This document shows, one piece after another, positions 7,702 to 28,146 of a stretch of DNA of 64,000 nucleotides (positions are counted from its first letter, which is position 1; each line of letters opens with the position of its first letter). This DNA comes from Acidobacteriaceae bacterium (lineage in GTDB: Bacteria; Acidobacteriota; Terriglobia; Terriglobales; Acidobacteriaceae). The translations under genes were made by a program, and so were the position numbers. Location: the NCBI GenBank assembly GCA_003165075.1, contig PLSM01000094.1:111509-175508 (forward strand), in the 5' to 3' direction. Below the pieces are notes generated by a model. It worked only from the letters and a program-made list of their open reading frames with translations, was not told the DNA's origin and did not search any database.

Positions 7702-9020
7702 TGCGAGCCTCTCTCTGCGGCGCGGGCATAAGTGCGCCGCACGTAGACCCACAGATAGAAAATGCCCATCGTCAACAGAATGGGTGGAATTGGCCTTGTG
7801 ACCGCAACCGTGACTATCTTTCCTGGCAACCCCGCTGCGGAAATGTTGAAATCCTTGGTGAGCAGCCTGAGAGCTATAAGCGGAATATCACCAGTCAGAA
7901 CAACCGCTGCGGTATTCACCAGCAAGGCGAGCCAACGAATCAGGCCGCCTTCTGCCCAGAGCATCGCACATGCAGGAATACTGAGCAGCAGGAGCTTGGT
8001 GTCATAGGGCCGATGATAAACCGGGAGCATGGTCAGAGCCGCGATTGCCGCCAGCGCCAGCCAGGCTGTCGCCGGCGAGGAACGCGATCGCACGGTTACA
8101 AACATCCATACGAGCAGCAGCGGCGCACAAATCAGATAGGAAGCCAGATCGTAGAAGCGCGGATCATCCCGAAAGGGGCTGATGACTGTTTGCAGGTCAA
8201 TGACTGTATACGGCAGGCGGCCATCAAAATTAGCCCCTCTTGGGTCGCTGAGGCTTCCAGGCGCAGAATTCGCCGATAAATTGGCGCGTAGTTCCGGCAC
8301 CCAGTTGGGAGCAACATGTGTGATCCACAGGACAGCGGGAAGACTTAGCACCAGTGTCACAACGAGGGTTTGCAGAGCGCGTTTGCGATAAACTCCGCCT
8401 GCCAATAAAAAGTAGAGCCACACCAGAGCCGCGTCATGGGGCTTGACAGCGAGGGCAACCGCAAGACACAGAACACCTGTCGCGGCAAAGCGCTCCTCAA
8501 GAAAACACCAGGCGGCAATCACGCAAAGGCTCACCACTATCCCGGCCGAATTACCGACCGCGAACACAAATTCGCAGTTGGCAAGCACCATGCAAGCCAG
8601 GAAAATGGAAACTCCCGGCGCGCGTCTTGCTCCCAGATCCCACATCAGAAAGGCCGCGAGGATCAGGCAGCAGGCCATCAGCATCATCCAAAGAACATGC
8701 GCAGGCCCCCACGGCAGAATCGCGAAGAGAGCCACGAACGAAGCTGCAGTGGGCAAGTAGACCCACAGCGTTACACTGCGGCGAAGCTGGGCAAACTCCG
8801 GTGAACTTTCCCCGCCAGCCGCCAGATAGGAACTCTGTAGTTCGCTCTCCTGGTAGGGGTCGCACCGTTGAAGCAGGCAATGCGTACCGTAATAAACCGC
8901 TTTGAAGTCGATCATTCCGTACAGCGCCGTTCGTTCCAAAGAAGCGCCCCAGAGGATGAAAATCCCGCTGCTCAGCAGCAACAGAAGCACTCCACCCAGG
9001 CGCGCTCTTGTCATCTTCAA
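7698..9020 (-). CDS. GT87/DUF2029-like multi-TM glycosyltransferase, tandem paralogue 2
   Basis: MIDFKAVYYGTHCLLQRCDPY, ALAVKPHDAALVWLYFLLAGG, LPVYHRPYDTKLLLLSIPACAMLWAEGG; ATGA overlap with upstream gene. Confidence 0.78.
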   Translation of the reverse strand: MKMTRARLGGVLLLLLSSGIFILWGASLERTALYGMIDFKAVYYGTHCLLQRCDPYQESELQSSYLAAGGESSPEFAQLRRSVTLWVYLPTAASFVALFAILPWGPAHVLWMMLMACCLILAAFLMWDLGARRAPGVSIFLACMVLANCEFVFAVGNSAGIVVSLCVIAAWCFLEERFAATGVLCLAVALAVKPHDAALVWLYFLLAGGVYRKRALQTLVVTLVLSLPAVLWITHVAPNWVPELRANLSANSAPGSLSDPRGANFDGRLPYTVIDLQTVISPFRDDPRFYDLASYLICAPLLLVWMFVTVRSRSSPATAWLALAAIAALTMLPVYHRPYDTKLLLLSIPACAMLWAEGGLIRWLALLVNTAAVVLTGDIPLIALRLLTKDFNISAAGLPGKIVTVAVTRPIPPILLTMGIFYLWVYVRRTYARAAERGSQ

Positions 9021-10447
9021 CCTCTCTCTCCGTCAGGAATGGCGTGCAAGCTCTGAAACCGGTTGCTGAGTCCCCTTTCCTGGCGCGCGCTGGATGCGAG
9101 CGGCTCGGGTTCGTGCGGCTGCTGTTCAGGACTTCGCACATCTGTGAATCCCGCCGGAGTGCGCATGCGCCGCACGTAGACCCACAGATAAAAAATGCCC
9201 ATCGTCAAGAGGATGGGTGGAATTGGCCTTGTGACCGCAACCATCGCTATCTTTCCCAGCAGGCCCGTTGGACCTGGGTGCAGATCCTTGGTGAGCATTC
9301 CGAGAATTGCCAGCGGAATATCTCCTGTCAAAACAACCGCCGCAGTATTTACCAGAACAGCAACCCACCCAACCAGGCCGCCCTCGGCCCAGAGCAAGGC
9401 ACAGGCAGGAACGGTGAGCAGCAAGAGCTTCGCGTCATGATGGCGATGATAAACGGGGAGCAGGGAGAGCGCCGCGACTGCCGCTAGCGCCAACCATGCT
9501 GTTGCAGGCGAGCTGTGGGAGCGCAGAGTTACTAATATCCAAACGAGCAGGAGCGGTCCGCATATCAGATAGGTCACCGGGTTATAGAATTGCGGATTAT
9601 CGCGGAAGGCGCCGACGACGGCTTGCATGTCGATGACCGGATCCGGATCGCGGTTACCGGCTCGATTGAGCTCTGGATCGTTAAGACCGCCGTGTGCCGT
9701 TGTCTCCACCAGATTCGAGTGCAATTCCTGCATCCAACGGGGCGCAACGCTGGACGTCCACACGACCGCCGCGAGACCCAACACAAGAGTCACTGCGAGA
9801 GTTTGCAGTGCGCGCTTGCGGCAAATTCCCCCCGCCAGCAGGAAATAGAACCAGACCAGGCCCGCGACCTGGGGCTTGACGGCGAGGCTGATTGCCAGGC
9901 AGATCACACCCACCGCAGCAAGGCGCTCCTGGAGAAAACACCACGCGCCCACCAGGCAAAGGCTGACCACAATCCCTGCTGTATTTCCAGCCGCAAAGAT
10001 GTATTCGCAGTTAGCCAGCACCATGCAAGCCAGGAATACAGAAACGCCCGGCGCGCGTTTTGCCCCCACGCTCCACATCAAGAAGGCGGCGATGGTCAGG
10101 CCTGCGCCCGTCATGGCCATCCATAGCATATGCGCCGGCCCCCACGGCAGCATCGCCAAAGGAGCGATGAAAATAAATACAGTCGGCAGGTTTACGCATA
10201 TCGTGACAATCCCGGAAAGTTGGCTCAACTCCGGGGTATGATCGTGCTCTTCGGCCAGATAAACCGACTGCAGTTCACTTTGCCGGTAGGGGTCGCGATG
10301 CTGAAGCAGGCATCGCGCGCCGTAGTAGACCGCCTTGAAATCTATCATTCGGTGAGGCATGGAGCGCTCCAACGAAGCGCCCCAGGAAATGAAGATCCCA
10401 CTACTCAGCAGCAACAGAAGCACTCCGCCCAGCCGCGCTCTTGTCAT
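9017..10447 (-). CDS. GT87/DUF2029-like multi-TM glycosyltransferase, tandem paralogue 1 (operon-proximal)
   Basis: MIDFKAVYYGARCLLQHRDPY, SLAVKPQVAGLVWFYFLLAGG; ATG at 10447 preferred over the longer track ORF because MTRARLGG aligns with the N-terminus of paralogue 2. Confidence 0.78.
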   Translation of the reverse strand: MTRARLGGVLLLLLSSGIFISWGASLERSMPHRMIDFKAVYYGARCLLQHRDPYRQSELQSVYLAEEHDHTPELSQLSGIVTICVNLPTVFIFIAPLAMLPWGPAHMLWMAMTGAGLTIAAFLMWSVGAKRAPGVSVFLACMVLANCEYIFAAGNTAGIVVSLCLVGAWCFLQERLAAVGVICLAISLAVKPQVAGLVWFYFLLAGGICRKRALQTLAVTLVLGLAAVVWTSSVAPRWMQELHSNLVETTAHGGLNDPELNRAGNRDPDPVIDMQAVVGAFRDNPQFYNPVTYLICGPLLLVWILVTLRSHSSPATAWLALAAVAALSLLPVYHRHHDAKLLLLTVPACALLWAEGGLVGWVAVLVNTAAVVLTGDIPLAILGMLTKDLHPGPTGLLGKIAMVAVTRPIPPILLTMGIFYLWVYVRRMRTPAGFTDVRSPEQQPHEPEPLASSARQERGLSNRFQSLHAIPDGERG

Positions 10448-10464
10448 GTTCGACCTTTCCTTCT

Positions 10465-11274
10465 TCAGGGACGGTGCGTGAGCTCGGAATAGTACTTCTG
10501 TCTGACCTTTCTTCCTGATGCTTCGAAGCGCGGCAGGCGGACAAGGTGCCACTTGTGCGCCACAAAGCTCAACGTCGTGCCGAGAACTCCAAGTCCATAC
10601 TGCACGCTACGCTTGAAGTTGATGGACGAAGCTTCTCGAAAGTATTTCGTGGGGCAGGAGATTTCTCCGATGCGGAAGCCGAACATAACGGCCTGCGCGA
10701 TCATCTGGTTGTCAAAGACAAAGTCGTCGGAGTTCTCGAGTATCGGTAGAGTCTCAAGCAGCTCGCGCGAGAATGCACGGAAGCCGGTGTGATATTCCGA
10801 TAGCTTGACGCCCAGAAACAGATTTTGAAACGCGGTGAGGAAGCGGTTGGCGATGTACTTATAGAGCGGCATGCCGCCCCGGAGTGCGCCACCGCCCAGA
10901 ATCCGCGAGCCAAGCACCATGTCGTAAACACCACTGGCCACCATGCCAGCCATGGCCGGGACCAGGGAGGGTGTGTACTGATAATCGGGGTGGACCATGA
11001 CCACAATATCGGCGCCCGCAGCCAGAGCCTCTTGATAACAGGTCTGCTGGTTGCGGCCATAGCCGTAGTTGGTATCGTGAACGAAGGTCTGCACGCCGAG
11101 TTCACGGGACAGTTGCGCGGTTTGGTCCCTGCTGGAGTCATCGACAAGAATCTTGATATCCACCACAGCAGACAGCTCGCGCACTGTCACTTCCAAAGTT
11201 TTCTCGGCGTTGTAGGCCGGCATCACGACCGCAATTCGTTTTCCGTCGATCATGGATTCACGACCCTCATCCAT
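10465..11274 (-). CDS. Family 2 glycosyltransferase, dolichyl-phosphate-mannose/undecaprenyl-phosphate-sugar synthase-like
   Basis: RIAVVMPAYNAEKTLEVTVREL, ILVDDSSRDQTAQLSRELG, VMVHPDYQYTPSLVP, YHTGFRAFSRE. Confidence 0.88.
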   Translation of the reverse strand: MDEGRESMIDGKRIAVVMPAYNAEKTLEVTVRELSAVVDIKILVDDSSRDQTAQLSRELGVQTFVHDTNYGYGRNQQTCYQEALAAGADIVVMVHPDYQYTPSLVPAMAGMVASGVYDMVLGSRILGGGALRGGMPLYKYIANRFLTAFQNLFLGVKLSEYHTGFRAFSRELLETLPILENSDDFVFDNQMIAQAVMFGFRIGEISCPTKYFREASSINFKRSVQYGLGVLGTTLSFVAHKWHLVRLPRFEASGRKVRQKYYSELTHRP

Positions 11275-11304
11275 CTATTTTCTTACAAACATACCTCAGG
11301 CGGA

Positions 11305-13065
11305 TTACCGTGTTACCGGGGTTACCTGCTCAGGCACCGGATAAGGGACGGCCTCTGCCGGACTCAGATCCGGCTGCACCAGCCAGACCTTCCGATTCTT
11401 ATAGTACTGGAATAGCTCACGATTACTGGCCCCATCCATCTCGTGCGCCCAGATGACCTTCGAATCATCGATGTCGGCGGCATTGAAAATCCACTCCTGG
11501 GTGAGATACGGGTCCGCAGAGGCGCGGACTAAAACCAGTTGCTGGCCAGGAAGCTGTTCCAACCGGCTCTCAATATTCGCTCGTTCCGTACCGAAATGAT
11601 CAGGTCCATACCAACGGTCCATCCACGCGCTTGGCGGCGCCTCGGAAATTGGGAAATGGAGCGCACGGTCAAATAACCGTAGTCCTGCCATCACCAGGCA
11701 TATGGTTACGCTCAGTCGCACGATTGTCGTGCCCACTCGTTGACCCCCGGGGCTCCAATGCCACAGATGACGCATGGCCTGCAATCCCACGGCATAGAGG
11801 GCCCCCGCAAAAGGCGCCAGATAATGCGGGATCAGGTAGATCTCAATCAACATTCCTGCCACGAGAACGAGCAAACACACAACGAGGAACCGGATGCGCC
11901 GGTCGCGGAGTGTCCAGGGAAGAAAGACGAGCGGGGGAAACAACGCGAATCCGGCGAAAAACAACTCCGCCCTGACTGGTTTGATCAGCGTTTGGAGTAG
12001 GAAGCCCGACGGCTTACGGAATGAATTGAATTCTGCGAGCTCGACGTCGCGATAATAGTGGAGCATGACTTCGTGGTGATAAACCGGCTCCGGCCGCGGC
12101 GACTGCCAGAAGTAATAGGGCGCCATGGCGTAGGTCGCTCGATTGACGGTGTAGGGCAAGGTAAGTGGGTTGCCAAAGGCGCGGTAATCGTAATAACCCA
12201 ACCACGCGGCAACGGCAACGAGCAGCGCCAGCGCGGGCACGGTACGCCGGAAGAGGACCGCGGCGGTAGGCCGGCCTTTCGCGGTCAGCAACCAGTGGAG
12301 CATCGCCACCGCGACGGGGATGCAAAGAAGCACGCATTCATAGGGACGGGTAATGGCAAGGAGACCAATGCCCACGGCCATCAGCAGAGCATATCGCGGG
12401 CGCGCAGTGCGCATGAAGCGCGGCAGCCCACCCAGCACCAGTGCGCCGCCCAATGCAGCGATGGAACCGCCACCGGTGTAGCTATTGGTCCAGTAACTGA
12501 AAATGCCCAGGCGCAGAACTGAGAGGAATCCGCCCAGGAGTGCCCAGCAGGGCGGCAACCACGCCTGCAGCATCCAGCAAAGTGCAGAGCACATGAGGCC
12601 GCTGGCGATGAGAAGCCCGTACCAGGGATGGCCGAAAAGGACTTTCCCCGTGGCAAGCACAAGGCCTTGACCAGGAAAGTACATAGACATGTACGTTGGC
12701 TTCATGTCGACGAAGATGGCTTCGAAGTGAACCCACATGGCGGGCGTTGGATTGGCGAGACGCCCGTGAGCAAACGTGTCCCCCGAGAGCAGGAAGCTGA
12801 AATCGTCTGCGATAACCGGGAGCGGGCGGGGTAACAAAGGAAGAATCACAAGGCGCAGAAGAACCATGGTCAGCCCAACAACGGCCACTGCCAATTCCTG
12901 CTTTCGCGCCAGGCGCCCGAATCCACGCTCAATCTGTGAGAAACCAGCAAAACCGAGTCGCGGCCATGCAAAGGCAACGGCAACCCCGATTGCTGTGAGA
13001 CCACCCTCAACCAGCATCGGTGTAATCGATTCGCCCAAAGAAGGAGAAGTCTGAAGCATGTACAT
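11305..13065 (-). CDS. Multi-TM membrane protein, GT-C/PMT-like
   Basis: Long hydrophobic ORF; acidic first loop VIADDFSFLLSGDTFAHGRLANP; co-directional with the GT2 gene, short gap. Confidence 0.55.
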   Translation of the reverse strand: MYMLQTSPSLGESITPMLVEGGLTAIGVAVAFAWPRLGFAGFSQIERGFGRLARKQELAVAVVGLTMVLLRLVILPLLPRPLPVIADDFSFLLSGDTFAHGRLANPTPAMWVHFEAIFVDMKPTYMSMYFPGQGLVLATGKVLFGHPWYGLLIASGLMCSALCWMLQAWLPPCWALLGGFLSVLRLGIFSYWTNSYTGGGSIAALGGALVLGGLPRFMRTARPRYALLMAVGIGLLAITRPYECVLLCIPVAVAMLHWLLTAKGRPTAAVLFRRTVPALALLVAVAAWLGYYDYRAFGNPLTLPYTVNRATYAMAPYYFWQSPRPEPVYHHEVMLHYYRDVELAEFNSFRKPSGFLLQTLIKPVRAELFFAGFALFPPLVFLPWTLRDRRIRFLVVCLLVLVAGMLIEIYLIPHYLAPFAGALYAVGLQAMRHLWHWSPGGQRVGTTIVRLSVTICLVMAGLRLFDRALHFPISEAPPSAWMDRWYGPDHFGTERANIESRLEQLPGQQLVLVRASADPYLTQEWIFNAADIDDSKVIWAHEMDGASNRELFQYYKNRKVWLVQPDLSPAEAVPYPVPEQVTPVTR

Positions 13066-13598
13066 CGAGCTGCTATGCCGGACGGCAGGAAAGGAGGTGA
13101 CTGAGATAGGCGCGGAGTAGGAATTTCATATGCAGCATATTCTAACTCTTAACAAGTTGAAGCTGAGCGCATTAAGTACTGAAGCCGGCGTAGAAGGTAG
13201 AGGGAGTACCCACGGAAATATCTTGTTTTCCGCGAGCCACTCCCCCAGGAGAATGGAGGGAACTGGTGTTTGCATTAGCCCTGAGGGGAAGCTAAGCAGT
13301 ATGGGCCAAAACCAGGAGACCTTCCCATGCATCTTTGCAAATGATTTGCCAGGTTAATTTAGGGGCCAAGCCGCCACGAGTCCCGGTGGTTCCCGGATTC
13401 CCGCAGCCACCCCGTTCTGGCCATGATTCAGTGGTTGAACCACTAACGAGATCCCGATTTCGCTAGCTCTGACTCAGGATCGACCCCAAAAACAGAGCCT
13501 GCGCATTCGACATCCAGTTTGCACTTCGGCGATGGTCCGCTTCGTGCCGCGTGCAATTACCACTACGACTGGCTTTCCAACAGAACTGGAAATTCAGA

Positions 13599-13796
13599 CT
13601 ACGTAATGTAACTGCCGACGGTGGTAGAAACCTGTCGGAACGCCTTGTTGAGGCCAGACGCCATGGACGACATTCCCGCAGTCGCTCCGAAGGCAACCGT
13701 TGCAACAACAAGTGCGTACTCGACCAGATCCTGACCCTCTTTGTCGTTGATCAGGATCTGAAGCCTGAGAACCCAATTGTCTAGGACATCCCTCAT
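13599..13796 (-). CDS. flp: Flp/Fap-type type IVb pilin (copy 2)
   Basis: NDKEGQDLVEYALVVATVAFGATAGMSSMASGLNKAFRQVSTTVGSYIT; AGGAG ribosome-binding site. Confidence 0.9.
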   Translation of the reverse strand: MRDVLDNWVLRLQILINDKEGQDLVEYALVVATVAFGATAGMSSMASGLNKAFRQVSTTVGSYIT

Positions 13797-13836
13797 TAAA
13801 TGTCTCCTGCGGTTTGAAATCTGACGGCAATCCGTA

Positions 13837-13861
13837 CCGGGCTTGTCTCTGGCAAACCCGG
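13837..13861 (-). other. Intercistronic hairpin between the two flp genes
   Basis: CCGGGTTTG-CCAGAGA-CAAGCCCGG on the minus strand (9-bp stem with one G-T pair, 7-nt loop); no U-tract. Confidence 0.5.
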
Positions 13862-13870
13862 AATTCCAGA

Positions 13871-14068
13871 CTACGTAATGTAGGAGCCGAGGGTGGTGGA
13901 AACCTGCCCGAACGCCTTGTTGAGCCCGGTCGCCAGGGACGACATACCAGCTGTCGCGCCGAAAGCGATCAAAGCCACAACGAGGGCGTACTCAACCAAG
14001 TCCTGACCTTCTTCGCGAGACATCAGATCCTGGGCCTTAACGAACATCTTGAGCATCAGATCATTCAT
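13871..14068 (-). CDS. flp: Flp/Fap-type type IVb pilin (copy 1)
   Basis: SREEGQDLVEYALVVALIAFGATAGMSSLATGLNKAFGQVSTTLGSYIT. Confidence 0.92.
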   Translation of the reverse strand: MNDLMLKMFVKAQDLMSREEGQDLVEYALVVALIAFGATAGMSSLATGLNKAFGQVSTTLGSYIT

Positions 14069-14122
14069 GTGTGTTCTCTCCTTGATTTTCGAATCCAGTC
14101 ACAGACTGGTGTGCACTCTACT

Positions 14123-14139
14123 TAGCAAGCGCCGTGCCA
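14123..14139 (-). promoter_or_regulatory. Sigma-54 (-24/-12) promoter for flp
   Basis: Minus strand TGGCACG GCGC TTGCTA; GG-N10-GC spacing; predicted start ~14113, ~45 nt before the flp start. Confidence 0.85.
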
Positions 14140-14202
14140 TTTGGTTGTAGCATCGCGTCTCATTAGAAGTCAATAACTTACGAGAAGCTACCCTCAATGA
14201 TG

Positions 14203-14220
14203 TGTAACCTATTGTTTACA
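14203..14220. promoter_or_regulatory. Candidate activator binding dyad (TGTAACC-TATT-GTTTACA)
   Basis: 7-bp inverted half-sites with one mismatch, centred ~98 bp upstream of the predicted sigma-54 start. Confidence 0.4.
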
Positions 14221-14419
14221 GGAAGGACCCCATGACCCGTACTCGTATACATAACACATTAGAAGCATGCCATAACACAAATTTGCAGAGCCACCCGTGA
14301 TGAAAGTAACAAACAGCGCGCTCGAAAAGTTACTCAATGACTGGCAAGGAGTGGTCTCCTGTGGGTGTGTCGGCTGTGCACTGCAGCCCAGTCACAGAAT
14401 GGCAGAAACTGAGAATCGT

Positions 14420-14881
14420 CTAGTCGGGAGATATACAATCGTGCCCCGCAACCGGCGGAGCGGCAGGAAAGAATTCCAGGAAGTCTCCAGCCTCGGTGCA
14501 CGTCTCTCGGATCACTCCGGCGGCAAGCTCAATCACAGAATGCGCGGACAGGCAGGCAGACATGCGCCAAGGCGGCACGTTGCTCCTCACCTTTCTGATG
14601 CGGTGTCTTCGGTCAAGGAAGACAAGGTCGATCGGGAACTGCATTCCGATGGTATGCACGGCCTCACAGGGGAGTATCCACAAACCTTCACCAGGACCGA
14701 GGCCTTTGCGCCCCAGCAGGCCTTTGGTGCGCTTTGCGCCATGATCGGCAACTTCCATGCTGCTGGCCAGCTGGGTATGGCGCGTAGTGTTCAGAACCTG
14801 AAGGCGAATCTCCGCGCCGGGTTGCGTGCGCCCTGCGCCCCCTCCGTGCAGCGCCATGGAAAACCAGGCAGGCAGCTTCAT
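14420..14881 (-). CDS. DUF192 family protein
   Basis: KGLLGRKGLGPGEGLWILPCEAVHTIGMQFPIDLVFLDRRHRIRKVRSNVPPWRM; consistent with DUF192. Confidence 0.8.
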   Translation of the reverse strand: MKLPAWFSMALHGGGAGRTQPGAEIRLQVLNTTRHTQLASSMEVADHGAKRTKGLLGRKGLGPGEGLWILPCEAVHTIGMQFPIDLVFLDRRHRIRKVRSNVPPWRMSACLSAHSVIELAAGVIRETCTEAGDFLEFFPAAPPVAGHDCISPD

Positions 14882-15092: not shown

Positions 15093-16676
15093 TTACTGAG
15101 ATCCGGGTCCGGCGCTGGTGCCAACCGCCGTATTCGCGGTAGCGGCGCCGCCACCGTAACTACCGCCGCCACCCGACGCACTCATCGATCCGTCGATGTT
15201 CAGCGGCTGCTCCGGCTTCATGCTATCCAGCAGTTTCTCGACAGGAATGGTTGGAGGCGGAGGCGCCGGACTGTTCTCAGCCGTCTTTGCGTCAGGATTG
15301 TGCATCGGAATTCCGGAGTTGGGCGGAAGGAAGGCTTGAGGATACTTAAGCTCCGGCAACGCCGCGCCGGCCGGAATAGGAGCCACGATCTCCGGCGTCA
15401 CAAGCACAATCAGTTCGGTATTGGTCTTGGTCCTTTGAATCGACTGGAAAAACTTGCCCAGAATGGGAATGTCGCCCAGAAAGGGTATCTTCTGGAAAGA
15501 CTCATTTTCACGGTTATCGAGCAGGCCGCCAATGGCGAAACTCTGACCGTCCTGCAGTTCGACCTCCGTCTTCACTCGGCGAATGTCAATTGCAGGCACG
15601 TCAAATCCACCGATTTGGATGGCCTGGGTAAAATCCAGTGAACTGACTTCCGGGGCTACCTGAAGACGAATGGTTCCGCGCGGAGTGATGGTGGGAATGA
15701 AGTTTAGCCGGACCCCATACTCCTTGAACATGAGGGTAATGGTGGCCCCGCCGGTCGTTCCGGCTGCCTGGGCAACTGGATATGGATATTCGCCGCCGGC
15801 AAGGAAGCTGGCCTGTTTCCCGTTCAAGGCCATTACGTTGGGCTCGGCAAGCACCTCAACCAGGCCCTGGGTCTGGAGGGCTTCGATTGTCGCACCGAGA
15901 TCCAACCCGGGGTAAAAGGCGAAGAGGTTCAGCGCATTGGAAAGTGACACCGCGGACGCAGTCGAACCAGTGGGAATGGTAGGCGAAGGCGGACTGAATT
16001 GACCCGTCGAGACACTGCCGATGGTGTTTCCAAGCCCAGTGCTGAAGACGTTAATCCCCAGCTGCTTTTCTTTGGTGCGGTCCACACTGGCAAATCGCAC
16101 CTTGAGCAGAATCTGCGGGTCCGAGGCAGGCACGCTGACGTTGAGCAGGTTGACGACCTTGCCTATCGAAGCGGCGATCGTTTGCGCCCGGTCGGAACTG
16201 TTCAGATCCTTCACTGTGCCGCGAAGAAAGATGCTGCCATTCTCTTCGCTGACCCTGAGATTTTGACCCGGAAGTTCGTTCCTGAGTTCGCGGCGGACGG
16301 CCTCAAGGCGGTCATTGGTGACGTAGGAGCTGGGCCGAACAGTTACGTTGAAAAACTGCCGGCTGCCGCTCGTGTCCCAGAGAATCAGCGTGGTCTCTCC
16401 GGGAGTCTTGCCGTTGACCAGAATCTGATTAGGGCTGATTGCGACGGCCTCCGCAAAGTCGCCCAGACCCACAACAATCCGCGTCACGGGCCGCGCAAGG
16501 TCCAGCACCACTGACTTACCCACGGCAACGGACAGATCGTTTGTGGAGTCCTGGCTGGGAGCTGCTACCGGCGAAGTAGCGGGCGGAGCAGTCTGCGCCC
16601 AAAGGCCTGCCCCGGGGCTGAAGAGGAAAGTCAATGCACTGACAAAAGCAATGGCGACCCCAGTTCTTGCTCTCAC
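15093..16676 (-). CDS. rcpA: Flp pilus secretin RcpA/CpaC
   Basis: Signal peptide, BON-like segment, LAEPNVMALNGKQASFLAGGEYPYPV, VTEVELQDGQSFAIGGLLDNRE, PFLGDIPILGKFFQS. Confidence 0.92.
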   Translation of the reverse strand: MRARTGVAIAFVSALTFLFSPGAGLWAQTAPPATSPVAAPSQDSTNDLSVAVGKSVVLDLARPVTRIVVGLGDFAEAVAISPNQILVNGKTPGETTLILWDTSGSRQFFNVTVRPSSYVTNDRLEAVRRELRNELPGQNLRVSEENGSIFLRGTVKDLNSSDRAQTIAASIGKVVNLLNVSVPASDPQILLKVRFASVDRTKEKQLGINVFSTGLGNTIGSVSTGQFSPPSPTIPTGSTASAVSLSNALNLFAFYPGLDLGATIEALQTQGLVEVLAEPNVMALNGKQASFLAGGEYPYPVAQAAGTTGGATITLMFKEYGVRLNFIPTITPRGTIRLQVAPEVSSLDFTQAIQIGGFDVPAIDIRRVKTEVELQDGQSFAIGGLLDNRENESFQKIPFLGDIPILGKFFQSIQRTKTNTELIVLVTPEIVAPIPAGAALPELKYPQAFLPPNSGIPMHNPDAKTAENSPAPPPPTIPVEKLLDSMKPEQPLNIDGSMSASGGGGSYGGGAATANTAVGTSAGPGSQ

Positions 16677-17527
16677 TGTTTTCCCTCGGGAGTTGCGAAT
16701 TTTTCTTCCGTCCTTTGCGCACCGTTGATGACCACGACCGAAAACATCTGAGGAGCTGGCTTGACCGGCTTGTTCACATGCCCGGACAAGTGGGCCTTGA
16801 CTGGCGTCTTGGCCACGTCCTGAAAGATATTGGTCATGGCGCTACCCTCAACCGGGTCAATCTTGGTATCGAGGGGATTCCGGAGCACCAGCTGGATATG
16901 CGTCTGATTGCTGGCCAAGGCCAATACTTGCGCCTGTTCCGGAGTCACCAGCAGATTGACCACCTGTACCTGCTGAGGCTTGCCTTCGGCATCTTTCTGG
17001 ATGTCCGTGCCGGCGGACAGCACTTCGATGTTCTGCAGGATGGTTCTCACCTGCGTATCCCCCTGCACAGCCTGGGTGCCCGGAGGGGTGCCGGAGACGA
17101 TCACATCGACGCGCATGCCGGGAAGAACGAAACCGGCCACGCCCACCACCTCATCCACCTTGATTGCGCAGGCTCTCATACCCTGCTGAATGGTGGCAGC
17201 GAGTCCGCCACCGGAGCCCATTGGCGCCAAGCGGTTATCCAAAATAGGCTCACCGGCATAAATATTCGCGATGACGCCACGCCCGACGGCGCTCTTCGCA
17301 TCGAGAATCGCGCCCTTCGGAGCTGTACCCTGAACCTGAAGCGTGGTCAGGTCATTGGCGCTCAGCACGGTCCCAATTTTGATGTCTTGAGCTGCCGCAA
17401 CCACGCTGGTGGCAGGCACCGGCTTCGACGCCGCGATGCGCAAGCCGACCAGGCGATAGACGACAAAGGCGCACAGCGCTGCCACAATGAATGCGCTGAG
17501 GAGAATGGTTGCCAGTCTTCGGTTCAT
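16673..17527 (-). CDS. rcpC: Flp pilus assembly protein RcpC/CpaB
   Basis: N-terminal TM, SAF-like segment (VVAAAQDIKIGTVLSANDLT), VVGVAGFVLPGMRVDVIVSGTP. Confidence 0.9.
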   Translation of the reverse strand: MNRRLATILLSAFIVAALCAFVVYRLVGLRIAASKPVPATSVVAAAQDIKIGTVLSANDLTTLQVQGTAPKGAILDAKSAVGRGVIANIYAGEPILDNRLAPMGSGGGLAATIQQGMRACAIKVDEVVGVAGFVLPGMRVDVIVSGTPPGTQAVQGDTQVRTILQNIEVLSAGTDIQKDAEGKPQQVQVVNLLVTPEQAQVLALASNQTHIQLVLRNPLDTKIDPVEGSAMTNIFQDVAKTPVKAHLSGHVNKPVKPAPQMFSVVVINGAQRTEEKFATPEGKQ

Positions 17528-21111: not shown

Positions 21112-22020
21112 TTACTTGAAAAACTTGCCGAACGATTGCGCCATGGTGATTACCGCGGGACCAAGCACGACTACAAAGAGCGATGGGAAGATAAAGAGCA
21201 CGAGCGGGAAGATCAGCTTGACCGACAGCTTGGCCGCCTTCTCTTCGATCTCCTGGACGCGCTTGGTTCTGAGCGTTTCGGAATGAACGCGTAACGTCTT
21301 GCCGATGCTTGTGCCAAACTGTTCGGCCTGCACCAGCATCGATACGAGGTTGCGAATCACGTCAACGTCGGTGCGTTCTGCCAGGTGCTTCCAGGCTTCT
21401 GCGCGCGGGCGTCCTGCACGCTGCTCAAGTGCCACGATTCCAAATTCGTCGCTGAGAGCCGGTTGAGCAGTGTGCAGTTCTTCCGCGGTGCGCGCCGTAG
21501 CCTGGTCAAGACTCAGGCCTGCCTCGATGCAGATGATCAGCATATCGAGGACGTCGGGCAGGCCACGCTTCAAGCTCGCCTGCCGTTTGGATATCTGCCT
21601 GCCTAGCCAGAAATCGGGCGCCAGAAATCCGACCCCCAGAGCAGCGGTATAAACAAACAGCGGACTGGTGTGCCCGAGCCCGGTCACCAGGGCAAGGATG
21701 CAAAGCACCACCGGCACAACTACCTTGGCACCATAGAAGAGCTTGGCGGCTCCATCCTTGCGATAGCCGGCACGGACCAGCCGTTGCTGCAGCACCCCGA
21801 TTTCGGCTTGGCTCCTGGGCAGCACACGCTCGAAGTGCTCTACCACGCCCCCGATTACGTTGCGCGTTTCCTCCAGGGTGGTGGAGAGGCTTCTCTTTTT
21901 GGTGCGTGGATAGAGCGCGGCGGTAATCCGCTCCTGAATCGTATCGCGATAGAAGATCAGCAATCCGCCACTGGCGATAAGCAGGAAGGCAACCACAAAA
22001 GAAACAACCGCAAAGATCAT
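21112..22020 (-). CDS. tadC: Tad pilus inner-membrane platform protein TadC (T2SSF family)
   Basis: LKRGLPDVLDMLIICIEAGLSLDQATARTAEEL, FGTSIGKTLRVHSETLRTKRVQEIEEKAAKLSVKLIFPLVLFIFPSLFVVVLGPA. Confidence 0.93.
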   Translation of the reverse strand: MIFAVVSFVVAFLLIASGGLLIFYRDTIQERITAALYPRTKKRSLSTTLEETRNVIGGVVEHFERVLPRSQAEIGVLQQRLVRAGYRKDGAAKLFYGAKVVVPVVLCILALVTGLGHTSPLFVYTAALGVGFLAPDFWLGRQISKRQASLKRGLPDVLDMLIICIEAGLSLDQATARTAEELHTAQPALSDEFGIVALEQRAGRPRAEAWKHLAERTDVDVIRNLVSMLVQAEQFGTSIGKTLRVHSETLRTKRVQEIEEKAAKLSVKLIFPLVLFIFPSLFVVVLGPAVITMAQSFGKFFK

Positions 22021-22029
22021 ATCTCTCCC

Positions 22030-23007
22030 TCACACATCCATCTTGACGATCTTGCGAATAATGAATCCACCAATGACGATTAAGGTTCCCGCGATCCACA
22101 AGAGCTTGACGCCGATTTCAGTTTTCCAGAGGAGGCTCATCATGGTGGGATTGACGGTATAGAGCAAGCCGGCCAGCACGACGGGAAGCAAAGTCAGAAT
22201 CCACCCCGTGAGCCGCCCCTGCGCAGTATGGGTATTGATCTGCCGCTTCAGGCGGAATCTCTCCCGGATCACAGTCGAAGACTTTTCCAGCACTTCTGCC
22301 AGGTTGCCTCCGCTCTCTCTCTGGATCAGGATGGCCGTGGCCACAATCTTCAGATCCTGCAATGGAACTCGGGTCACCAGGTTGTCCATGGCGGATTTCA
22401 GATCGAGGCCGTAATTCATCTCGTCGAAGGTAACTCGAAATTCTGCGCCGACCGGGTCAGGGCACTCGCGGGACACCAGGCCCATTGCTGCGTTCAGGCT
22501 ATGGCCCACACGCAGCGCGCTCACGACCAGATCGAGGGCTTCAGGCAAACCCTGTTCAAATTGACCCATTCGGCGGGACCGCTTTTGCACCACCACGAGA
22601 AATGGCAGCGTGGACAATGCCAGTCCCACAACCAGGGCGAACAACAGGGCATGGGTGCGGAGCCAGATCAGGTAGGCGGGGACGATGAAAGCTCCGCCGC
22701 ACATCAGCATCAGGCCTCCCACTGTCCACTTGAGATCTGCCTGATAGAGCAGACGGCGCATGCGCGGCGCTAGTTCCAGCTTCGTCAGCCAGCGATCCAG
22801 CCAGGGAATGGTGCTCATCAGTTCGCTCTTGCGAACGTCGACGATCAACTCGCTCATTTCCGCCTTGGCGCCGGTCGATGCCAAAGCAGTGTCAAGCCTG
22901 GCCAGGGCCATCTTGGCGTTGCGCTCTGCGCTGGAACCGCTGGCAATTGCCACCACGGCTATCACGCCGAAGACGCCCAAGAATACGAGAATGACGATCA
23001 GAGCCAT
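22030..23007 (-). CDS. tadB: Tad pilus inner-membrane platform protein TadB (T2SSF family)
   Basis: QFEQGLPEALDLVVSALRVGHSLNAAMGLVSRE, RESGGNLAEVLEKSSTVIRERFRLKRQINTHTAQGRLTGWIL; start MALIVILVF at 23007. Confidence 0.93.
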   Translation of the reverse strand: MALIVILVFLGVFGVIAVVAIASGSSAERNAKMALARLDTALASTGAKAEMSELIVDVRKSELMSTIPWLDRWLTKLELAPRMRRLLYQADLKWTVGGLMLMCGGAFIVPAYLIWLRTHALLFALVVGLALSTLPFLVVVQKRSRRMGQFEQGLPEALDLVVSALRVGHSLNAAMGLVSRECPDPVGAEFRVTFDEMNYGLDLKSAMDNLVTRVPLQDLKIVATAILIQRESGGNLAEVLEKSSTVIRERFRLKRQINTHTAQGRLTGWILTLLPVVLAGLLYTVNPTMMSLLWKTEIGVKLLWIAGTLIVIGGFIIRKIVKMDV

Positions 23008-23030
23008 ATCGATCCGACCCCCCTTTCCGG

Positions 23031-24302
23031 TCAGCTGACTTCCGTGGAACGCTCGAACAGCGTCGACGGAAGGAAGATGCCTGAGGTTTTGAGCTGTTCG
23101 AGGAACCGGGGACGGATGCGGCTGGGCTGGAAGACGCCCTGCACCTTGCCGTTGGGCCCAATTCCCTTCTTGTTGAACGTGAATATTTCCTGCATGCTGA
23201 TGACGTTCTCTTCCATGCCCGTGATCTCGTGAATGCTGACCACTTTGCGGGAGCCGTCGCTCATGCGCGTGCACTGCACAACGATGGTGAGAGCCGAGGC
23301 AATCTGCTGCCGCACAGTCTTTTCGGGCATATTCAGATTACTCATGGCTACCATGGACTCGAGCCTGGTCAGCGCATCGCGCGCGGTATTGGCGTGCACT
23401 GTGGTCATCGAGCCCTCGTGGCCGGTGTTCATCGCCTGCAGCATGTCGAAGGCTTCCTCGCCGCGGACCTCACCGATGATGATGCGGTCGGGGCGCATAC
23501 GGAGGCTGTTAATAAGCAGTTGACGCTGGCGGATGGCTCCCTGCCCCTCCACGTTGGGCGGGCGCGTCTCAAGGCGCACAATGTTTTCCTGCGCCAACTG
23601 CAGTTCCGCCGCGTCCTCGATGGTGATGACGCGCTCATTCTGCGGGATGTATTGCGACAGAATATTGAGGAAGGTGGTTTTTCCGGCGCCGGTACCGCCG
23701 GAGATGAGGATGCTGAGGCGCGCGCGCACAGCAGAGGAGAGCAGTTCCATCATCTCTGCGGAAATGCTCTTCAATTGCACCAGTTGGTTGGCGGCCAGGG
23801 GGCCGGTGCCGAAGCGGCGGATCGACAAGCTCGGGCCGTCGAGCGCCAAAGGGGGGATGATCGCGTTGACGCGGGAGCCGTCGGGCAGGCGTGCGTCGAC
23901 CATGGGCGACGACTCATCCACTCTGCGGCCCACGCGCGATACGATGCGGTCGATGATCTGCAGCAGGTGGCGGTCGTCGCGAAACGCTGCATCGGCCCTC
24001 TGTAGCAGGCCGCCTTTTTCAATGAAGACGTGGTCCTTGTCATTGACCAGAATGTCGGAGATCTTCTGGTCCTTGAGCAGTGGCTCCAGCGGGCCCAGGC
24101 CAAAGACTTCGTCCAGCAGGTCTGTCTCGATCTTTTCCTGTTCGTCAAAGCTCAGCGGCACCCTGCGGTCGCTGATGATTTCGTTGATGATGCTCGAAAC
24201 TGCCTGGCGCGCCTGGCTGGAATTAATTCGCGACAGCTTTTCCAGATCCAGCTTGGAAAGCAGAGTCCGGTGCACTTCGGCCTTGAAATTCTCCAGATTC
24301 AT
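23031..24302 (-). CDS. tadA: Tad pilus assembly ATPase TadA/CpaF
   Basis: [76 protein letters not shown]. Confidence 0.95.
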
Positions 24303-24361
24303 CGATGCCCCGCATTGCCGCTAATGAAGTTGGACTGCAATGAAATTCCCACGCTCTGGAT

Positions 24362-25561
24362 TTAGCCTCCAAAAAGGCTGAATCCCTTCCGCTTTTCCGG
24401 CTTGGGAGGCATTCCTGCCGCCTCTCGCGCCATTTGCTGGATGACCCTTCCAATGCTCGAGTCATCCGTAGCCAGCGACGTAGCCTCGTTCTGCAGCCGC
24501 CGGATGGTGAAGTAATCACTGGGAATCTTCCACTGAATGGGCCGTGTAAGAGCTTTCTCTATATGCTCTTCATCGACACCCATGGACTGTTTGACGTAGC
24601 GGTTCAGAACAATTTCGAGTTTGGGACCGCCGGATTTGAAAAACTCCGAAATCAGGCGGTGCGAGTTTCTCAATTCAGGAATTCCGGCTTGCATGACCAG
24701 GTAGAAGGTATCCACCTGCTCTAACCAGGTGGCATCGGTCAAATCGCATCTTGAACCCGCGTCAACCACCACAAAACCAAATTCCTGCTGCGCGACGGCC
24801 AGCAGTTTTCCGATGGCGTCGTTGCTGGCTGGAATTTGAGGAAACCTTCCCGGAGCGGCCAACACCTGCAGACCCGATGGGTGCTTGGTGAGCAGCTTGG
24901 TAAAGAAATTCGCATCCAGCCGGTCCGCGTTCTGGATGGCATCGGCAGTGGAGAACTGGTTGGTCAGGCCGAGGCTGAGGGCCGCGTCTCCAAGGGGAAG
25001 ATCGAGGTCGATCAATGCCGTAGTCTGACTGCACTCCTGCACCAGGGCCACGGCAAAATTGCAAGCCACCGTGGTCACCCCGGAGCCGCCCTTGCCACCC
25101 AGGAAGACAAGAAGTTTGCCACCGGTCTTCTTTGCTGTGCGCGGCGTCCTGCGGCGAGCACCGGCCCGGCTCAGCGCATCGCTAAGAGCGCCGGCGTCGA
25201 TGGGGTCGGCCAGAAACTCGCGCGCTCCCGCCCGCATCGAACGAACCATCATGTTGGGGTCGATCCGCGTGGAGTAGACCATCACCGTCGCCGTATTCAT
25301 GCCGGCCATGGCCTCTACCAGTTGCAAGGCGTACTCGGGATCGCTTTCCAGGTCGATGATGATCGCGTCAAACTGCTGTTCCATGAACCTCGGAACGTCT
25401 TTGATCGTCGGAGGGTAGGAGGAATACTCCCGAACTACCGCCGCATGAGACACGGCCAGAGCGCTGGCCACAGTCCTCCGGCGCCCGTCTTGCGGGCCAA
25501 TTAGTGCAACAGACAATACACTGCTGCTTAAGGGATCCGAATCTTGATTCTGAGTATCCAT
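24362..25561 (-). CDS. cpaE: Tad pilus localisation ATPase TadZ/CpaE
   Basis: Atypical receiver-like N-terminus, deviant Walker A FLGGKGGSGVTTVACNFAVAL, LIDLDLPLGDAALSLGL. Confidence 0.9.
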   Translation of the reverse strand: MDTQNQDSDPLSSSVLSVALIGPQDGRRRTVASALAVSHAAVVREYSSYPPTIKDVPRFMEQQFDAIIIDLESDPEYALQLVEAMAGMNTATVMVYSTRIDPNMMVRSMRAGAREFLADPIDAGALSDALSRAGARRRTPRTAKKTGGKLLVFLGGKGGSGVTTVACNFAVALVQECSQTTALIDLDLPLGDAALSLGLTNQFSTADAIQNADRLDANFFTKLLTKHPSGLQVLAAPGRFPQIPASNDAIGKLLAVAQQEFGFVVVDAGSRCDLTDATWLEQVDTFYLVMQAGIPELRNSHRLISEFFKSGGPKLEIVLNRYVKQSMGVDEEHIEKALTRPIQWKIPSDYFTIRRLQNEATSLATDDSSIGRVIQQMAREAAGMPPKPEKRKGFSLFGG

Positions 25562-25658
25562 TAGAAAGTCAACGCTCCCACTTTCCTGAAACAGCACTGC
25601 CTGTTGAATTCAATTTGTTGCGTTGTCTGCATACTCTACATGGCCCAGAGGTAGTTTC

Positions 25659-26297
25659 TCAATGGGAAAAGAAAGAAAGAACAGTACCAATGGCCATGGC
25701 TGGAGCATACGGTATCTTGCGTGCCTTCGGATTGGAAAGCACTAGCTCTTCCGGAGGACGCATGCCGCGCTTCTTCCAGCCAAAGACAAGATCGCCCGTT
25801 CCGCTGAACAATTCACCCAGAAATCCTCCGCACACCGCCCACCCAATAGCCATGATCCCCCCCACCATACCGGTTACAACCAGCGCAAACACCAGTTGGG
25901 ATGGGCCGATCCAGGCTCCGATTGCGGCGCATAGTTTCACGTCGCCCATACCCATCCCGCCCATCCAGAACAGAATGCCGTAAAGCAGCGCTCCCAACCC
26001 CAGACCCTCCAGGCTGTGCCAGATCCCGATACCGCGCGGCAGGAAAGACACACCAATCCCCACCACCAGGTAGGGAAACACCAGCCAGTTGGGAATGCGG
26101 CGGCTGCGCAGATCCGTAAACGTGGCCACAGCGAGAACCACCACTGTGGGCCACCAGGCGATCAAGTGCAAATCCGGCCTCCCCGATTTAATTTCAGGCG
26201 ATATTGGTGTTGAAGCAATTGTCCCTCCAAATTGCAGTCTGTCAAGAGTACATGAATTCAATGTGTTACCAAGCAGTTCATTTACCGCTGTGTACAC
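25659..26297 (-). CDS. tadV: Prepilin peptidase TadV/CpaA (A24 family); start uncertain
   Basis: TFTDLRSRRIPNWLVFPYLVVGI, WMGGMGMGDVKLCAAIGAWIG (GxGD-type aspartyl protease). Confidence 0.88.
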   Translation of the reverse strand: MYTAVNELLGNTLNSCTLDRLQFGGTIASTPISPEIKSGRPDLHLIAWWPTVVVLAVATFTDLRSRRIPNWLVFPYLVVGIGVSFLPRGIGIWHSLEGLGLGALLYGILFWMGGMGMGDVKLCAAIGAWIGPSQLVFALVVTGMVGGIMAIGWAVCGGFLGELFSGTGDLVFGWKKRGMRPPEELVLSNPKARKIPYAPAMAIGTVLSFFSH

Positions 26298-26748
26298 ACA
26301 TGTATACGGGCGCCGAGGTGCTATGGAGCGCAGCGTTTACACTGATCAACAGGAATAGGCATTTCCGATAATCTCTCCTCCGCATGCCCGTTTTGATCGA
26401 TTGCCGGCCTTCTGATTTCGCCCGCCGGGTCAGACGTAACTGCAACTATTACTCAAACTTACACGATCGTCTCTATTACTTTAGTGTTACCCACGTTACC
26501 AGTTTCACACCAAGGTGGGATTGACCATTAGAGCAGGGCCGTCCAGAGTGAAAGATAACAACTCTCTCGCAGAGTCCGATCTTGCGTCTCTTCGCTCGCC
26601 AATCGGCTCTCTGGTAACCCGTAAGGCTCCTCAAAGCTGCGTGAATTTGAGGAGTCAGTACCCGTAGTTCTCCTACGCCTTGGTTCTCAAGATAGGTTCT
26701 TAAGCTGCGCTGATTAGGTGTTGCGCAAGAGGGGAATGAGATCATCCT

Positions 26749-28146
26749 TTGATGATTCAAATAGGACTACTTTCAGACGACCGCGCGCTGCAACCGCTTC
26801 TTTCTTCGGCATTGGGGAGAGAATTTCGCGTTCTGCAGGAAGCCAATGAAGACGGCATCGACGAGCGCCTCGCTGCGGCGGAATGCGATGTCTTGATTCT
26901 TGATCTGCACGCTGAGAACGGGTCGCTGAAAGAGCGGATCGCTTGTTCCCGGCGACTGATCGCCTCGCAGGTTCCCCTGGTAGTCATGGCCGACGACGGC
27001 TATCGTTCGGTCGCTTTGGAATTGGTGCGAGTGGGAGCCTTTGGCTACTGCCGCCGTCCACCCTCTATTCGCGAGTTGAAAACGATGTTGTGCCGGGCGC
27101 ACGAGAATTCTGCGCTCAAGCGCGAGATCCAGACCGTGCAACAGCGCCTGGAGTCAGTCAGCAGCTGCGATCGCCTGATCGGTTCCAGTGTGCGCATGCA
27201 GCGGGTCTATCAGCTGGTGAAGCGCGTGGCTAATATCAACGCGTCGGTGCTTGTGTCCGGCGAAAGCGGCACCGGCAAGGAACTCATCGCCCGCGCCATT
27301 CACAATCTCGGTTCCCGTGCGGACAAGCCGTTTGTGGCCGTATCTTGTAGCGCCATCCCTGAGACCTTGATCGAGGCGGAACTTTTCGGCCACGAAAAGG
27401 GAGCGTTTACCGGTACTGTTGGGGCGCGGGAAGGCTACTTCGAGCAGGCACAGGACGGCACCCTCTTCCTCGATGAAATCGGTGACCTGAGCCCCTTTAC
27501 CCAGGTCAAGCTTCTGCGCGTTTTGCAGGAAATGGAATTCAACCGCCTGGGGAGCACCCGCATCATCCCGCTGCGGGCTCGGCTGATCTTCGCCACCCAT
27601 CAGGACCTGCAGAAACTGGCTACTGAAGGCAAATTCCGCCGCGATCTCTACTACCGCATCAATGTGATGCGAATCGATGCCCCGGCGCTTGCGGACCGCC
27701 CGGAAGACATCGAGCAGATCGCTGCTCACTATCTGGACCATTATTCCGAGATGTTTCAAAAGCCGATGGACCGGATTGAACCGGAAGCAATGTCCCTGCT
27801 CAACACCTATTCGTGGCCCGGCAACGTGCGCGAGCTCGAAAATGTGATTCAGAGGGCGATCATCCTTGCTCCCGGACGGCGCATCCGTATGGATGATCTG
27901 CCACTGGTGATGCATACGGATAAGGTAGTCGATATCAGCGACTACAACCCTGCCGGATCGTTCGAGCGTCAGCTTCGCGACTACAAAATCAAGCTGGCCA
28001 CCGACGCGGTGAAGGAAAACAACGGAAACAAGACCCTGGCGGCGCGCAGCCTGGGCATTTCCCGCGCTTACCTCCATCGCCTGATTCGGCTTTCAGAGCC
28101 GGATCCGATGTTCGAAACGGAATCCGTGGGTTCCGCTTCGGCATAA
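26749..28146 (+). CDS. Sigma-54-dependent activator: receiver-like, AAA+, Fis-type HTH
   Basis: [105 protein letters not shown]. Confidence 0.95.

Follow-up and report, generated by a model that had tools for sequence, protein, structure and literature searches.

What controls transcription of the pilin genes and the assembly genes of an acidobacterial Tad pilus? The stretch of DNA analysed here (64,000 nucleotides, hereafter the window) contains tadV, tadZ, tadA, tadB, tadC, a gene for a PilZ protein, cpaB, cpaC and two Flp pilin genes, which together identify it as a Tad/Flp locus. Judging from its sequence and from comparison with related genomes, we consider it highly probable that the flp and tadVZABC operons are controlled by sigma-54 promoters and by an NtrC-family activator encoded beside tadV, with a UAS and an IHF/HU-type bend. 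The genes concerned are the following.

13599..13796, minus strand: flp2, the second Flp pilin, placed in one putative operon with flp1 (PF04964, E=1.7e-6, slightly short of the curated cut-off)
13871..14068, minus strand: flp1, Flp/Fap-type pilin (PF04964, E=7e-7, slightly short of the curated cut-off)
15093-16676, minus strand: cpaC secretin (Pfam)
16673-17527, minus strand: cpaB (Pfam)
21112..25597, minus strand: tadZ/cpaE, tadA, tadB and tadC (Pfam matches)
25659..26171, minus strand: tadV prepilin peptidase (PF01478; start probably TTG 26171, MHLIAWW, by homology)
26752..28146, plus strand: NtrC-family sigma-54 activator with an atypical receiver, an AAA+ domain with GAFTGT and a Fis-type HTH (PF00158, E=7.5e-68; orthologue alignment)

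The two pilins are 67% identical. A DUF192 protein is encoded between cpaC and flp (14420-14881, minus strand), and an ORF of similar size occupies the same place in the related genome G002. Downstream of flp2, the minus strand at 9017-13065 encodes a polytopic membrane protein, a glycosyltransferase-2-like protein and another membrane protein; the corresponding cluster of G002 encodes GT87 and GT2 proteins. A role of these genes in pilin glycosylation is possible.

The control region of flp

The elements below were located upstream of flp1 and in its predicted leader.

14095..14109, minus strand: 5'-leader hairpin CCAGTC-TGT-GACTGG, spanning roughly +5 to +19 of the predicted transcript
14124..14139, minus strand: sigma-54 promoter of flp, TGGCACGGCGCTTGCT (-24/-12), exact consensus with GG-N10-GC
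14168..14180, minus strand: IHF-like site TAAGTTATTGACT, reverse of WATCAANNNNTTR with 1 mismatch, 41 bp upstream of the sigma-54 site
14203..14220, no strand assigned: UAS dyad TGTAACC-TATT-GTTTACA (equivalently TGTAAAC-AATA-GGTTACA), 1 mismatch to the clade consensus
14245..14251, minus strand: distal half-site TGTATAC, 31 bp upstream of the flp dyad

The consensus tested, TGGCACG-N4-TTGCW with GG-N10-GC, is matched exactly at flp. The minus strand reads TGGCACGGCGCTTGCT at 14139-14124, and the TGGCACG-GCGC-TTGCTA of the preliminary description was confirmed. The C of the -12 GC lies at 14125 and the predicted +1 near 14113, which leaves the expected leader of 45 nt before the flp ATG (14068/14069). 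TGGCACGGCGCTTGCT is the single zero-mismatch match in the window. The genome scan for TGGCACGN4TTGCW that had been suggested returned five exact sites in 5.68 Mb, the flp site among them; two of the remaining four are apparently intragenic and two lie ahead of short or unrelated ORFs. When up to 2 mismatches were allowed, the pattern was not enriched in the window (12 found against 14.4 expected from shuffles), and the promoter pattern by itself is thus weak evidence. The genome encodes rpoN (PF04552, E=1.5e-56). A sigma-70 promoter for flp was also considered and was rejected, as positions 13500-14500 of the window contain no sigma-70-like site.

The clade consensus of the dyad is TGTAWAC-N4-GTWTACA, 18 bp in length, and the copy at 14203-14220 is the only one in the genome with at most 1 mismatch to it. 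The preliminary description had placed a TGTAACC-N4-GTTTACA dyad about 98 bp upstream of the predicted start, and both sequence and distance proved correct, the centre of the dyad being 98 bp upstream of the predicted +1.

The leader hairpin is conserved. In an alignment of 26 congener leaders 92.8% of its cells are paired, as against 18-54% in slid controls, and three pairs carry changes on both sides. It occurs in species that lack the activator as well, and a comparison with Rfam gave no match. The simplest reading is that the hairpin would stabilise the 5' end of an abundant mRNA.

Conservation of the control region in related genomes

The activator and flp were looked for in 60 related genomes, and the sequence preceding the flp copies was inspected. 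Of the 90 flp copies in activator-positive congeners, 33 have a high-scoring sigma-54 site at 66-82 nt before the start of the flp match, versus 0-2 of 90 for other intervals of the same 17-nt width. This conservation argues decisively against a chance match. Counted by genome, the site is present in 27/30 activator-positive and in 0/4 flp-bearing activator-less congeners (P=7.5e-4 if the genomes are taken as independent, a value that is optimistic because the congener sample is phylogenetically correlated). The activator-positive exceptions at the flp copies examined were G012 and G023, which have no good sigma-54 site, and G018, which has a weak site together with a good UAS. The -24/-12 element at its fixed distance is among the best conserved features in activator-positive species.

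Exact dyads were found at 26 places in 19 genomes, every one of them an activator-positive congener. They lie directly upstream of flp in 21 cases and ahead of other genes with a like-built sigma-54 site in three; the remaining two are at a contig end and at a place without a promoter. No exact dyad was found in 24 genomes of other families or in six activator-less congeners, and a reversed dyad used as a control pattern had zero matches in the searched genomes. The distance from dyad centre to promoter is either 70-73 bp (n=12) or 81-84 bp (n=18) with no values between, and the two groups differ by one helical turn, that is, they show same-face phasing. The dyad is located as a UAS would be: upstream, on the same helical face as the promoter and conserved together with the activator. 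Pairwise identity is 0.77 for the dyad and 0.70 for the promoter but only 0.30-0.32 for the linkers, indicating that these blocks are under selection and that shared ancestry alone is insufficient to account for them.

Two further elements recur at the conserved promoters. In 28 of them a TGTAWAC half-site precedes the dyad by 30-34 bp. Between dyad and promoter, a match to WATCAANNNNTTR with at most 1 mismatch falls into one 5-nt interval in 25/29 conserved promoters, the mean elsewhere in those promoters being 0.02 per interval of this kind. The block lies on the opposite strand at a constant position between the UAS and the sigma-54 site, which is where IHF sites are usually found in promoters of the sigma-54 type. 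Binding of the TAAGTTATTGATT block by a specific regulator instead of IHF or HU would change the bending step only, and it is a realistic though somewhat unlikely alternative. The block is rich in AT and contains a core resembling a -35 element, and the genome has three HU/IHF-family genes, an assignment at the family level that does not distinguish HU from IHF. Against a specific regulator, the fit to WATCAANNNNTTR is maintained at a constant position in the promoter architecture.

Similar sites also occur outside the flp setting. In G020 (L334), G031 (L335) and G016 (L332), the same UAS and sigma-54 site precede genes other than flp, which are possible further regulon members; in G020 and G031 they are followed by a gene for a proline-rich lipoprotein-like protein. 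One dyad breaks the rule: an exact copy in G020 (L333, C295) lies upstream of a radical-SAM-like gene (MqnC-like by eye) that has no sigma-54 site. A different dyad, ACACTTTNGTGT, was seen upstream of the distal half-site at L071, L072, L073 and several activator-positive flp upstream regions (among them L065, L070 and L076). It is also present in activator-less species and may be the site of another regulator.

The activator, the tadV promoter and species that lack the activator

Twelve strong PF00158 matches mark the sigma-54 activators of the genome, and one of them is in the window. The preliminary description was right that the ORF at 26749-28146 is the only such activator in the window and that it lies beyond tadV, in divergent orientation, where the locus ends; its start is probably ATG 26752, as homology indicates, and not TTG 26749. 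The protein has the features of an enhancer-binding protein, namely an AAA+ sigma-54 domain, Walker A (GESGTGKE), GAFTGT and a C-terminal Fis-type HTH. Walker A and GAFTGT are shared with most of its 27 orthologues, among which the recognition helix SRAYLHRL is nearly identical. The HTH_8 match of the window protein (E=0.002) is below the curated cut-off, and six of nine orthologues match. A wider search of genome contigs returned only distant matches (34-48% identity) from many phyla.

The N-terminal domain of the activator is degenerate in sequence. A structure model, which is mostly below pLDDT 50 across the AAA+ part and informative mainly for the N-terminal domain, gives the first 120 residues a (beta-alpha)5 receiver fold at pLDDT 80-90. 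The Pfam receiver model matches one of nine orthologues, and that weakly. Receiver residues were assigned by alignment with the conserved positions of NtrC: D52 and the acidic residues are kept, the conserved Thr is replaced by Ala81 and the Lys by Arg103. D52 is invariant in nine representatives and retained in nearly all of the 27 orthologues. Two of the residues that define a phosphorylation-controlled response regulator (acidic pair, Asp, Thr/Ser and Lys) are thus lost. Since these are the conserved Thr and Lys, ordinary phosphorylation control of the activator is doubtful, and its activity may instead be set by protein level or by a partner. No kinase gene was seen next to it. A more specific idea is that the activator is a phosphorylation-independent sigma-54 switch whose pseudo-receiver serves as an interaction domain sensing the condition of the pilus machinery (TadZ/CpaE, with a receiver-like domain of its own, being one conceivable contact), and so couples pilin and assembly genes to pilus assembly or surface contact. 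We regard this idea as speculative and improbable.

The intergenic region between the activator gene and tadV contains an arrangement of the flp type oriented towards tadV.

26214..26229, minus strand: sigma-54 promoter of the tadV operon, TGGAGGGACAATTGCT, predicted +1 near 26203; conserved as TGGnnnGACAATTGCW in congeners
26256..26268, minus strand: IHF-like site TAACACATTGAAT, weaker than that of flp
26291..26308, minus strand: UAS of the tadV promoter, CGTATACATGTGTGTACA; UAS and core conserved in congener loci
26335..26341, minus strand: distal half-site TGTAAAC, same half-site arrangement in congeners

The tadV sigma-54 site retains GG and TTGCT. UAS and GG/TTGCW core are both present in 17/19 congener loci with tadV in reach, and the UAS starts 76-80 bp upstream of the core in 14 of these 17, the other three being one or two turns off. 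With a like-built promoter before tadV, it is plausible that one regulator controls both the pilin and the assembly operons. A UAS half-site was also sought upstream of cpaB and was not found.

Six congeners lack an activator orthologue, also when searched with the DNA-binding region alone. In a tree of 28 RpoN sequences, G001, G002 and G009 fall among the activator-positive species, grouping with the activator-positive G000 and G026 (support 97/96), and G005 and G021 group with G008. The absence of the activator requires at least two changes on this tree, which we read as losses. The five activator-less genomes covered by the search for rpoN retain it (G036 was outside that search). At flp of G001, G002 and G009, the dyad and the -24 GG are absent. 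Upstream of tadV (L296, L290 and L297, respectively), the same three species keep a partial UAS, GGTGTATACCC ... GTGTACACTTGGCT, and G001 also keeps GG-N10-GC. Such remnants would fit decay after loss of the activator. Since these sites are partly kept, however, another protein may use the tadV UAS in these species.

This last observation bears on whether the sigma-54 promoter is real but its dyad is bound by a different activator or by a regulator unrelated to sigma-54, with the tad activator serving something else. The genome does encode 11 sigma-54 activators besides the tad-encoded one, and a partial tadV UAS survives where the tad activator is missing. On the other hand, exact dyads are confined to activator-positive congeners, species without the activator lack the flp dyad and promoter as well, the activator gene adjoins one of the two promoters, and the recognition helix of the activator equals the dyad in conservation. 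Binding by another regulator is therefore very unlikely.

The activator-less species also supply what can be said for sigma-70 as the driver of flp, with the -24/-12 match being incidental. TTGACT occurs around the IHF-like block at flp of G001, G002 and G009, and TTGACA-N16-CAGAAT occupies the place expected for the sigma-54 site at tadV of G002; sigma-70 may therefore have replaced sigma-54 in these species. The strong conservation of the -24/-12 element at a fixed distance in activator-positive species makes a sigma-70 promoter at flp of the window scarcely credible.

The proposed circuit and known systems

We propose that sigma-54 RNA polymerase would transcribe the flp and tadVZABC operons from two like-built promoters, each with the order distal TGTAWAC half-site, 18-bp dyad, IHF/HU-type bend site and -24/-12 element. 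The divergently encoded activator would bind the dyad, and a bend of the IHF/HU type would let it reach the closed complex at the promoter. Using ATP, the AAA+ ring of the activator, which carries the GAFTGT loop, would then open this complex, and transcription would start near 14113 (flp) and 26203 (tadV). The link between activator, dyad and promoter, which the preliminary description had offered as inference, gains support from conservation in about 30 species, co-loss, helical phasing, the near-invariant recognition helix and the like-built tadV promoter, all of which are comparisons of sequences. The elements named in that description stood, and it had overlooked the IHF-like site, the distal half-site, the tadV promoter and the degenerate receiver.

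These results offer a testable control circuit for a Tad pilus, consisting of a regulator, a binding motif and two target promoters, in a lineage for which we found no report of sigma-54 control of pili. Natural species without the regulator could be used as controls. The conserved but degenerate receiver raises the question of which signal turns the pilus on. No publication on sigma-54 control of Tad pili or pilins in Acidobacteria turned up in a search that covered subscription journals thinly, and two multi-phylum sigma-54 surveys (PMC3162934, PMC12316311) do not mention Flp or Tad.

Of the precedents we found, DVU2114 from Desulfovibrio vulgaris comes closest; the targets of this sigma-54-dependent regulator were mapped by DAP-chip (Rajeev 2011, PMC3333781; Kazakov 2015, PMC4641369). 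They comprise pilin genes beside Tad-type (cpa/tad) assembly genes as well as a second pilus operon, and in a few species the regulator and its binding motif are conserved as a pair (PMC3333781, PMC4641369). Compared by regulator class and targets, the window activator would, like DVU2114, be a sigma-54 regulator of pilins by a Tad-type locus; DVU2114 differs in that it is from another phylum, is listed as a two-component response regulator and has a GAFTGA loop motif. A sigma-54 pilin promoter with an NtrC-family activator is also known from PilR-PilA of type IVa pili in Pseudomonas, Myxococcus and Geobacter (see also PMC3333781). There, as proposed here, the gene for the major pilin is preceded by a sigma-54 promoter, and an NtrC-family activator binds upstream of this promoter. 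PilR works with the kinase PilS and serves another pilus class, whereas the window activator has a degenerate receiver and no kinase adjacent to it was seen.

PprB, as cited in PMC3333781, is encoded with tad/flp genes and controls them. The same relation between a regulator and neighbouring tad/flp genes is proposed here. PprB is not known to be a sigma-54 activator, in which it differs from the window activator. Promoters of the nif/ntr type have the order UAS, IHF, -24/-12 and show helical phasing. The promoters described here are alike in both respects and differ in UAS sequence and target genes. The control design is of a textbook style, and what is new is the lineage, the binding motif and the altered receiver.
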